Shown in pieces: positions 32,599 to 35,371 of a stretch of 64,000 bases of DNA. Source of the stretch: Synechococcus sp. MVIR-18-1 (GTDB taxonomy: Bacteria; Cyanobacteriota; Cyanobacteriia; PCC-6307; Cyanobiaceae). The first letter of the stretch is position 1. Every line of letters begins with the position of its first letter. The notes below the pieces were generated by a model, which was given only the letters and a program-made list of their open reading frames with translations, searched no databases and was not told the DNA's origin. The stretch lies in NCBI RefSeq assembly GCF_014279835.1, contig NZ_CP047942.1, forward strand, positions 1,302,001 to 1,366,000, written 5' to 3'. Position numbers and translations under genes: made by a program.

Positions 32599-33195
32599 TT
32601 GCATTGCCTCAAAAGGGGTCAGAGTTTAGATATCACATTCTTGGATCTTGATGAAGCCAAAACTTGCAAATTTTTAGGCATAGAAGAAGGAGTCTTACGC
32701 GTCTGCCTCGTCTCAACAATCAATTCCGAACTATTTCCAATTGGTTTTTTTGGTTCAGAGTGGTTGAGGCTTGAGAAAAACAGACTTAGAAATTTTGATC
32801 TGCGCCTAGAAGCACTAAATGAAGTAAAATTTAAAATAACATCCACCCATGATTGTGCAAACGAAGTGGATTCCATCTTTCACAATCACTGGCTACTAAT
32901 ATTGTGCATGATAAAATCATCCACTCAAGTTGAGATCAGAATCTGTCGTTTAATCGCGATTCTAGTATTTTCGTTTGGAAGAAGGAATAAAGAGAGTTAT
33001 ACACTGCCATTCGAATTAAGCCATTCACAAATCGCCCTCTTAGTTGGCTGCACCCGATCAACTGTAACGCGTCAAATTGGCTTCATGAAAGAGAAGGGAT
33101 TAATCTGCTCAGAAAAATACCAGTTTGGAATCTTAGTTAGCGAGAAACTAATCGCACAGGAATCAACATTTGTAGAGTATTTGCAATTCACTTGA
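32599..33195 (+). CDS. Crp/Fnr-family regulator
   Basis: A 198-residue regulator with a degenerate cyclic-nucleotide-type N-terminal domain and a clear C-terminal winged helix. The DNA-recognition helix is within LSHSQIALLVGCTRSTVTRQI near residue 155. The ligand-binding motif for cAMP is not conserved, as in many picocyanobacterial family members. The start is TTG at 32599; a stop at 32569 limits upstream extension, so the N-terminus is uncertain. It converges tightly with the Cys-rich mini-gene (stop positions adjacent) and is followed by ferritin on the same strand, so iron or redox control is plausible. Confidence 0.82.
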   Translation: MHCLKRGQSLDITFLDLDEAKTCKFLGIEEGVLRVCLVSTINSELFPIGFFGSEWLRLEKNRLRNFDLRLEALNEVKFKITSTHDCANEVDSIFHNHWLLILCMIKSSTQVEIRICRLIAILVFSFGRRNKESYTLPFELSHSQIALLVGCTRSTVTRQIGFMKEKGLICSEKYQFGILVSEKLIAQESTFVEYLQFT

Positions 33196-33357
33196 TTAAC
33201 CACGACCACATTTACAATGGCCACCTTTCCACTTCGAACATTTTGATTTCTTACAGCCTTTTTTCTTACTAAAAAAGCTCAAAATTGAAAGTCTTTTCGT
33301 CATTTTATCGATCCCAAGGCCTTCTTGTGAACCCTGAAGTCGTGCCATTCGAGTCAT
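33196..33357 (-). CDS. Cys/Lys-rich mini-protein
   Basis: A short minus-strand frame ending in KKGCKKSKCSKWKGGHCKC followed by GRG, with four Cys and one His in the last 20 residues among many lysines. This is a metallothionein-like or metal-binding pattern. In-frame ATGs occur at 33357, 33348 and 33303; the last would give 35 residues and leave a 64-base leader. A TATAAT (complement of 33374-33379) and a 15-base Fur-like palindrome sit directly upstream, and ferritin is divergent. The longer frame to 33438 begins upstream of the promoter and is rejected. Function inferred only from composition and context. Confidence 0.5.
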   Translation of the reverse strand: MTRMARLQGSQEGLGIDKMTKRLSILSFFSKKKGCKKSKCSKWKGGHCKCGRG

Positions 33358-33359
33358 CT

Positions 33360-33379
33360 TGAGATTGACTCTCATTATA
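33360..33379 (-). promoter_or_regulatory. Fur-like palindrome abutting a TATAAT promoter
   Basis: TGAGATTGACTCTCA at 33360-33374 is a 7-1-7 imperfect palindrome, with each half matching the Fur half-site TGATAAT at about five of seven positions. It begins where a TATAAT (complement of 33374-33379) ends on the minus strand and covers the expected transcription start for the Cys-rich mini-gene. Repression by a Fur-family protein is inferred. Confidence 0.45.
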
Positions 33380-33413: not shown

Positions 33414-33442
33414 TTGACGAAACAGTGGAAAAAGTCAATAAT
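33414..33442 (+). promoter_or_regulatory. Sigma-70 promoter of ferritin
   Basis: TTGACG at 33414-33419, a 17-base spacer, and AATAAT at 33437-33442. The expected start near 33449 gives a leader of about 30 bases before the ferritin ATG, with a ribosome site at 33463-33469. Confidence 0.7.
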
Positions 33443-33477: not shown

Positions 33478-34053
33478 ATGACGATCTCAGATTCGTCAAC
33501 GCAGATGGCAACGAACGTTGCACAGGGACCTAACGGAAGGGCACTGGCTGAATCCATGAATCCAGATTTGCTCAGTGCAATCCAGCAACACATTTCAATC
33601 GAAAGGCATGCCTCAATCACTTATTTGGCAATGTCCATCTGGTGTGCTGAACGTGAACTTGCTGGTTTCTATCAATTCTTCGATGGTGAAGCGAAGAGCG
33701 AGCAGTCCCATGCCGTGCACTTCACCCAGTATTTGATAGCACGCAGTCAATCCAACGACCTGCAACTATTAGCTGCTCCAAGGCAAAGCTGGGACAATTT
33801 GGCTGCATTAATGGCAACAGCCTTTCAGATGGAAGCTGATACAACGTCTTCGATCCAAAGCGTGTATGCCATGGCTGAAAGAAACAGCGATACCAGAACT
33901 AGCGTATTCCTAGATCCACTCATTGAAGCCCAAATTCAATCCGAAGATCAATTCGCTTACTTGCTCGGGCGGGTGAAGTTCGCGAATGGTGACCCCACAG
34001 CGTTGCTTGTCATCGATAACGAATTAAGAGCAGGTCAAACGCAGCGAGGTTGA
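33478..34053 (+). CDS. ftn: Ferritin
   Basis: A four-helix ferritin that oxidises and stores iron. Counting from the second in-frame ATG (33505), the residues known to matter in the studied Synechococcus ferritin are present: E33, Y40, E62 in [16 protein letters not shown], and the C-terminal [14 protein letters not shown] helix. The ATG at 33478 is chosen because AGAGGAG at 33463-33469 sits 8 bases before it. That adds nine residues (MTISDSSTQ) relative to the shorter form, which has no ribosome site. The tail overlaps the convergent small gene by 30 bases. A good promoter and a nearby Fur-like site support metal-responsive expression. Confidence 0.92.
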
Positions 34054-34311
34054 CCTGAGCATTGCTCGTTTGCTTTGTTCGTAGAGCAAACGAGCACTAA
34101 TCGTGAGCTGCTCAAGATTAAGGACGTCAAAAGTTTCATAAATTTCCACGAGCCTGATGTGAATCGATTCCAAATCGTCTCTTAAACGCTTCTTCAGCAA
34201 TGGGCTGATCGATTTAATTGTTCTTTCAATGGCGATGCACTGGTAACTCGTTAAATGTTCAACCTCCTGACTCAAGGTCAGAACCAGGCTCTCACTAGCA
34301 ATTCCTTCCAC
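34024..34311 (-). CDS. Small helical protein next to Crp/Fnr gene
   Basis: A 95-residue protein, mostly amphipathic helix ([37 protein letters not shown]), with no known motif. The start is GTG at 34311, 8 bases after the upstream Crp/Fnr stop, with AGGTGA just ahead, so the pair is probably an operon. Its last ten codons overlap the ferritin 3' end on the other strand. Role unknown; linkage to the regulator suggests a partner or target. Confidence 0.6.
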
Positions 34312-34319
34312 GTAATCAC

Positions 34320-34913
34320 CTAAAATCCGAGCGGACTTGATTCAATCAATCTGGGAGAGAGTTTCATAGAAGCTTCACCAGAGTTGGTCACCAACATTTC
34401 ACCATTGCGAAGTTTGGAGATCAAGCGCGTAGACGTCACTCTGGTGGAGCCAATCAATTCACCAATTCGGTCGTGTGTAAGTCGAAAGGGAAGATTGCAC
34501 CACTCTCCATAGCGCTTACCCAAGCGATTCACTAACAGACTCAGCAAGGCGTGAAGTCTCTGTTCTGCTTGTCCTAAGTGACGAATTCTCAGAAGTTGCA
34601 GCGTCCACTCATTCACTGAGTCATACCCATTTGGGGATGGCTCCATCGATTTCGTTTCGATTCTCAGTGGAGTCATCGCTTCAACGCAAATACCATCACT
34701 GCACAAACAATCAGTCCTGAGCTGATCACCTGTCTGTAGGAAGGCAAGCGTCATCCCTTCTGTTTCTTCGCAAGGGCAATACACCCTGGCAATCCCTTCG
34801 AGCACATTTAATTTCATGCAATCACTGCGCCCGTGGGTGTCGACAAGCACGGTTTGCCCCGTCGGGATTTGGATCGACGACGTGGGGTCGTCAGGCAGGA
34901 AGCGGAAGCTCAC
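34320..34913 (-). CDS. Crp/Fnr-family regulator
   Basis: A 197-residue Crp/Fnr protein. The N-terminal beta-roll region contains a run of cysteines (RVYCPCEETEG and RTDCLCSDGICVE). The C-terminal winged helix has LTHDRIGELIGSTRVTSTRLI as its recognition region. Four to five cysteines in the sensor domain could bind a metal or Fe-S cluster, as in FNR, but the spacing is not the classical one. The ATG at 34913 overlaps the stop of the upstream membrane-protein gene by 4 bases. With ferritin next door, iron or redox sensing is a reasonable but unproven guess. Confidence 0.82.
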   Translation of the reverse strand: MSFRFLPDDPTSSIQIPTGQTVLVDTHGRSDCMKLNVLEGIARVYCPCEETEGMTLAFLQTGDQLRTDCLCSDGICVEAMTPLRIETKSMEPSPNGYDSVNEWTLQLLRIRHLGQAEQRLHALLSLLVNRLGKRYGEWCNLPFRLTHDRIGELIGSTRVTSTRLISKLRNGEMLVTNSGEASMKLSPRLIESSPLGF

Positions 34914-35204: not shown

Positions 35205-35371
35205 TGTCTAGCGACAAAAACAGAATTGAATTCGCTTGTATCAAATGACGTGCATCAATGTGCCTTATGTAAAAAAGAATTGTGCTATACAAGGGGACTA
35301 AAGTGTCTTATTTACGTCGCAACTTCGGCAAAGAGCAATTAAATTTGCGTCGACGCATTTTGCGTCATCTT

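Follow-up and report, generated by a model that had tools for sequence, protein, structure and literature searches.

A conserved cysteine- and lysine-rich microprotein gene linked to ferritin in picocyanobacteria

Genes and control elements at the ferritin locus

The window analyzed here, a 64,000-nucleotide stretch of the Synechococcus sp. MVIR-18-1 genome taken as a whole, contains a short gene for a Cys/Lys-rich microprotein between a ferritin gene and a Crp/Fnr-type regulator gene, crpA (Table 1). The first-pass annotation of this DNA had described a short Cys/Lys-rich reading frame divergent from ferritin, with a TATAAT element and a palindrome over its expected start, and the coordinates confirm that description, with six of the seven arm pairs of the palindrome matching when counted by eye. 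The 15-base box reads TGAGATTGACTCTCA (TGAGAGTCAATCTCA on the minus strand), and the TATAAT runs directly into it.

Table 1. Coordinates of the genes and sequence elements around the microprotein gene, in window positions.
Feature	Position	Strand	Remarks
crpA, Crp/Fnr-type regulator gene	32599..33195	+	Convergent with the microprotein gene; HTH_Crp_2 (E 3.6e-9) and synteny
Cys/Lys-rich microprotein gene	33196..33348	-	Span includes the stop codon; 50 aa from the preferred start (MARLQGSQEGLGIDKMTKRLSILSFFSKKKGCKKSKCSKWKGGHCKCGRG)
Conserved C-terminal core KKKGCKKSKCSKWKGGHCKCGRG	33199..33267	-	56-sequence alignment and pN/pS
Fur-family-type 7-1-7 box (putative)	33360..33374	-	Overlaps the -10 element/expected start of the microprotein promoter
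TATAAT, -10 element of the microprotein gene	33374..33379	-	Perfect consensus
Promoter-like TTGACG-17-AATAAT of ferritin	33414..33442	+	Consensus match only
Ferritin gene, SynFtn class	33478..34053	+	Divergent from the microprotein gene; Pfam PF00210, E 3.2e-23
95-aa ORF	34024..34311	-	No Pfam match; overlaps the ferritin 3' end
crpB, second Crp/Fnr-type regulator gene	34320..34913	-	Far side of ferritin; best NCBIfam match PtrA, below its cut-off

Read from the preferred ATG (33348-33346, minus strand) to the stop codon (33198-33196), the microprotein would have 50 residues, with 14 Lys/Arg and 4 Cys, and it ends in the tail KKKGCKKSKCSKWKGGHCKCGRG. The window and its six nearest relatives (L002-L007) all share this start. 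The choice among start codons is uncertain: past the box, the first ATG in frame would give 53 residues, and the longest in-frame ORF begins further upstream, at a TTG, and gives 80. The gene has no clear Shine-Dalgarno sequence, and its stop codon abuts that of crpA on the opposite strand. Among the 734 window ORFs of 25-90 aa it alone combines at least four Cys with at least nine Lys/Arg over the last 25 residues, and a tail of this type occurred in none of the 9316 ORFs from ten mononucleotide shuffles of the window.

The ferritin belongs to the SynFtn class, an assignment drawn from its ferritin domain and its best PDB matches, the SynFtn chains 7pf7, 5ouz and 5ouw (near-full-length, E about 1e-110 to 1e-107); its ATG at 33478 is preceded by AGGAG. 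Two different Crp/Fnr-type genes, crpA and crpB, flank it. Relatives of crpB occur in 40 of 50 hand-picked family genomes and adjoin ferritin in many loci, the 95-aa ORF is conserved in L001-L007 of the 23 genus loci, which represent the window and six near relatives, and the 552-aa ORF beyond crpB is presumably a porin, judging from its sequence. Upstream of the latter, at window positions 35238-35247, lies GTATCAAATG, which occurs exactly at only five places in the genome (none for the reversed control). It also begins 26 bases ahead of the start codon (ATG) of a rubrerythrin-rubredoxin gene (L142); no obvious iron gene accompanies the remaining three sites. It is found near the microprotein in 14 of the 23 genus loci (L008-L018, L020-L022) and upstream of a flavodoxin gene (L134), and a Crp-type regulator, crpB for instance, possibly binds there.

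Ferritin shares a locus of about 3 kb with the microprotein in 20 of the 23 genus loci (all except L008, L009 and L023). Another 41 loci of 3-6 kb, partly from the same genomes, include ferritin in 31 cases; in these 31 the two genes are divergent in 27, convergent in three (L058, L066, L073) and on the same strand in one (L076). The reading that the microprotein is strictly a neighbor of ferritin is ruled out by genomes in which the genes are separated: six g5 loci (L054, L057, L090, L092, L094, L127) have the microprotein between a Crp-type gene and a porin gene, with ferritin about 4.2-4.4 kb away, and the distance is about 91 kb in G013 and about 270 kb in G085. One genome (G001) has five ferritin matches, three with identical scores (48% identity), and ferritin seems to have expanded there.

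A microprotein family of the picocyanobacteria

Relatives of the microprotein were found in 23 of the 31 genomes of its own genus and in 279 of 400 genomes, or 49 of 59 genera, of the family, including genera with genomes of 1.6-1.9 Mb. In a sample of the phylum 30 of 291 genomes gave a match, all 30 of them within the same family, and a scan of genome contigs returned two relatives, apparently on contigs already counted. No relative was found in phage records, searched with one 40-aa member at E ≤ 1, or in IMG/VR contigs.

Eight positions are invariant across 56 aligned sequences (C32, K36, C37, W40, K41, G42, C45 and C47). The Cys pattern, whose conservation had been set beforehand as a check on the first-pass annotation, is Cx4Cx7CxC, with all four Cys within 16 residues, and it is the same in every one of the 56. 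Members differ in the length of their N-terminus, where a short (I/L)G motif is frequent, and total about 28-54 aa, lengths that rest on start codons picked by us. For the core, pN/pS is about 0.14 (mean pS 1.0, mean pN 0.14; 1830 pairs from 61 core sequences), a ratio to be read knowing that the residues of the search pattern are conserved by construction; pN was below pS in 99.9% of these pairs and in every pair among 21 sequences from the genus. The microprotein is conserved and under purifying selection, and its conservation together with pN/pS rules out a chance ORF. The gene is best explained as encoding a translated, lineage-specific protein of marine and related picocyanobacteria.

Searches of family and structure databases gave little. 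At E ≤ 1, Pfam returned a weak match for the 80-aa frame (PF12387, E 0.034, below its cut-off), and for the 56 members only weak, scattered matches that involved at most two members per family (RNF180_C, best E 0.027; DUF1540, E 0.03, one member). NCBIfam likewise matched at most two of the 56 members per family (best E 0.11), a PDB profile search gave two chance matches only (E 4.7 and 5.4), and Rfam gave no match within the window at gathering thresholds. The AlphaFold2 model of the microprotein, with a possible hairpin, is of low confidence (mean pLDDT 62, about 75 over the last 20 residues), too weak for a decision on a metal site. None of the matches in Pfam, NCBIfam or PDB is convincing for the family, and single genomes may annotate it as a hypothetical protein.

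The microprotein was not found described in the available portions of the literature consulted, the SynFtn papers included (PMC9723758, PMC9337993, PMC8743623, PMC7762939, PMC3475125, PMC3744912, PMC2518516, PMC5126843). One of these (PMC2518516) lists 113 new ORFs, 33-130 aa long, for Prochlorococcus MED4, and a Prochlorococcus member of the family may be among them. The NsiR6 micro-protein is likewise a short cyanobacterial protein with four conserved Cys, but it is described as phylum-wide, with a CPVC pair and nitrogen induction (PMC5126843), whereas the microprotein has another Cys pattern and was found in one family only.

Promoter box and co-inheritance with ferritin

When two mismatches to TGAGAATNATTCTCA are allowed, the genome has 14 sites, the box among them; with up to three mismatches there are 104, versus 41 for a reversed control. 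The best sites elsewhere, with at most two mismatches, precede a gene for a zinc/manganese-type binding protein (L103) and one for an ABC permease whose substrate is unproven (L104), and several others fall within ORFs, so that the box is predicted to be a regulator site of Fur-family type (Fur, Zur or PerR) and is not provably Fur's. Upstream regions of flavodoxin genes, read to tell Fur from PerR or Zur, contained a site scoring at least 12/14 in one of six genomes. A promoter scan of the window DNA did not report the minus-strand TATAAT with any -35 element; its sole minus-strand match was inside the microprotein ORF, and its two matches in total compare with 1.3 expected.

Ahead of the microprotein, a box scoring at least 11/14 is present in 39 of 73 unique upstream regions, versus 1.1% of mononucleotide shuffles, and the first in-frame start codon of these regions follows 17-44 bases after the box start. 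In these 39 regions the sequence agrees with the Fur-like promoter of the first-pass annotation; in the remaining 34, including all eight from g5, the box is missing, and control of the microprotein is accordingly not uniform. In G033 (L125), which has a ferritin and in which no microprotein was found, a perfect 9-1-9 palindrome, ATTGAGATTGAATCTCAAT, lies upstream of ferritin.

To assess co-inheritance, we compared the microprotein survey of 400 genomes with a search for the window ferritin (E ≤ 1e-33) in 222 family genomes at least 95% complete, and 71 genomes were re-tested for ferritin at E ≤ 1e-8. Scoring covered 210 genomes, leaving out G656, which is not in the microprotein survey, and 11 ferritin-negative genomes not matched to that survey. 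Ferritin was present in 180 of 185 microprotein-positive genomes (171 with a SynFtn-class match and nine with a more distant ferritin; none in G019, G237, G310, G319 and G354) and in four of 25 microprotein-negative ones (G033, G171, G207 and G234), the other 21 having none at the lenient threshold. A pattern search near the ferritins of those four genomes found no missed microprotein. The Fisher exact test gives 1.8e-20 for this association, a value that ignores shared ancestry. Five genera (g1, g5, g6, g45 and g51) each include genomes with both genes and genomes with neither, and several events are therefore needed to account for this.

In a hand-picked set of 50 genomes, G019 is the only one of 36 microprotein-positive genomes without ferritin, and its microprotein has an in-frame stop. 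Ferritin occurs in one of the 14 microprotein-negative genomes of this set and crpB in five, indicating that the microprotein tracks ferritin more closely than it tracks the regulator; crpB is kept in four of the 13 genomes that lack both microprotein and ferritin. In related genomes the microprotein is thus mostly kept or lost together with ferritin, which supports the link with iron storage proposed in the first-pass annotation, with the caveat that one deletion can remove neighboring genes and that the genomes are not independent.

The association extends to a second class of ferritin. In seven genomes (G290, G093, G160, G189, G200, G229 and G133) the microprotein adjoins a different ferritin, 31-32% identical to that of the window and convergent with the microprotein rather than divergent from it (loci L145-L149, L152 and L066), and the box (TGCGATTGATTCTCA or TGCGAACGATTCTCA) is still found ahead of the microprotein. 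Since the box stays with the microprotein across this exchange, it belongs to the microprotein gene, and the exchange itself points to a tie with ferritin as such and not with one promoter or one ferritin class. In G091 and G115 the distant ferritin is located elsewhere, away from the microprotein.

Possible roles of the microprotein

The microprotein resembles Bfd (bacterioferritin-associated ferredoxin; PF04324, Fer2_BFD), the usual small four-Cys partner in ferritin systems, in being a small four-Cys protein encoded beside a ferritin-family gene, under its own control and with a plausible role in iron release. It differs in that its Cys all lie within 16 residues, in that it is shorter and in that its partner is a non-haem ferritin; the Cys spacing of Bfd is wider. 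Bfd is a small [2Fe-2S] protein that is expressed differently from the adjacent bfr, and its loss traps iron (PMC7762939). PF04324 was not among the matches at E ≤ 1 of the window ORF or of the 56 members, and a search for Fer2_BFD (E ≤ 0.001) in 40 family genomes with both microprotein and ferritin gave no match in 39 and, in the other, a match only inside a 928-aa frame. The linkage with ferritin genes supports a protein that works like Bfd, not membership of the Bfd family, and the Bfd-like anatomy combined with the absence of a free-standing Bfd favors a Bfd-like role filled by a non-homologous protein.

Our preferred reading, to which we assign a probability of roughly 0.4, is accordingly that the microprotein is metal- or redox-active and serves ferritin. 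On the mechanism that we infer, the four invariant Cys would coordinate either a single metal ion or a small center, Fe-S or Fe(II), in a compact C-terminal hairpin, and the Lys-rich surface would dock on the acidic ferritin cage (computed charges of about +11 for the microprotein and about -10, pI 4.7, for the ferritin subunit). The microprotein would then move electrons, ferrous iron or both into or out of the mineral core, chiefly so that stored iron is released. A Fur-family repressor bound over the TATAAT and the transcription start would allow it to be made under iron shortage, with ferritin driven from its own promoter. A single four-Cys cluster, opposite charges and a promoter of its own that a Fur-family repressor could shut are features that suit a small protein carrying metal or electrons for ferritin. 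In a metatranscriptome, CC9311-like ferritin transcripts were higher at low iron, which taken alone does not point to opposite control of microprotein and ferritin; others were higher at high iron (PMC9723758).

The microprotein might instead be a metallothionein-like buffer that sequesters Cu(I), Zn(II) or Fe(II) under metal or oxidative stress, with ferritin a co-stress gene and not a partner, a view we hold to be rather unlikely. Its four closely spaced invariant Cys speak for such a buffer, and SmtA/BmtA metallothioneins are likewise small and Cys-rich, the bmtA of strain WH8102 being placed under the Fur-family regulator Zur (PMC9337993). SynFtn, a class described in marine picocyanobacteria, has also been tied to copper or general stress: the CC9311 SynFtn is raised by elevated copper and a stress role has been suggested for it (PMC7762939), which keeps the buffer alive as an explanation. 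The CC9311 protein is of the same class as the window ferritin and thus corresponds to the neighboring gene, not to the microprotein. The first-pass label of metallothionein-like, taken as a family, is not supported, as no metallothionein model in Pfam or NCBIfam was matched and the microprotein has one tight four-Cys cluster and many Lys/Arg; nor would a general buffer be expected to be co-inherited with ferritin, a different ferritin class included. We consider it unlikely that the microprotein binds nucleic acid, as a small basic protein of zinc-knuckle-like type, and in this way controls ferritin or an iron-sparing response. Such a binder would recall the Fbp proteins of Bacillus subtilis, Fur-controlled small basic proteins proposed to act in this manner, and it would suit the strong positive charge, the invariant Trp and Lys, the possible hairpin and the box that overlies the promoter in 39 of the 73 upstream regions. 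The Pfam matches of the members are, however, weak and scattered, and an exchange of ferritin class and arrangement would exchange any RNA or DNA target in ferritin as well.

That the microprotein is a mere neighbor in an iron or stress regulon, its joint presence and absence with ferritin arising from deletion of a single locus and from shared ancestry, strikes us as quite improbable. Most loci do place the two genes close enough for one deletion to remove both, but the pair persists where they lie kilobases to hundreds of kilobases apart and across differing ferritin class and orientation, and crpB is retained in some genomes that lack both. We give very little credence to the conserved element being an RNA or DNA feature and not a protein. 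The ORF is very short, with a variable N-terminus and no clear Shine-Dalgarno sequence; against this stand the core pS near 1.0 with pN of 0.14, and the Rfam search of the window, which gave nothing at gathering thresholds.

A bolder form of the preferred reading, the Bfd-like ferritin accessory, is that the microprotein is a ferritin partner of a new class, with no structural relation to Bfd but replacing it across the picocyanobacterial family. It would be a minimal metallo-microprotein, about 28 aa in its shortest form, able to open or reduce the cores of two ferritin classes. We regard this as doubtful; if true, some of the ocean's most abundant phototrophs would rely on an uncatalogued gene for storing iron.

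A microprotein kept with ferritin despite an exchange of ferritin class offers a direct handle on the route by which iron leaves bacterial non-haem ferritins and on the role of SynFtn in marine picocyanobacteria, which has been raised as a question (PMC7762939). Pfam and NCBIfam leave uncovered here a widespread gene of these ocean phototrophs, one that is probably an unrecognized part of their handling of stored iron.
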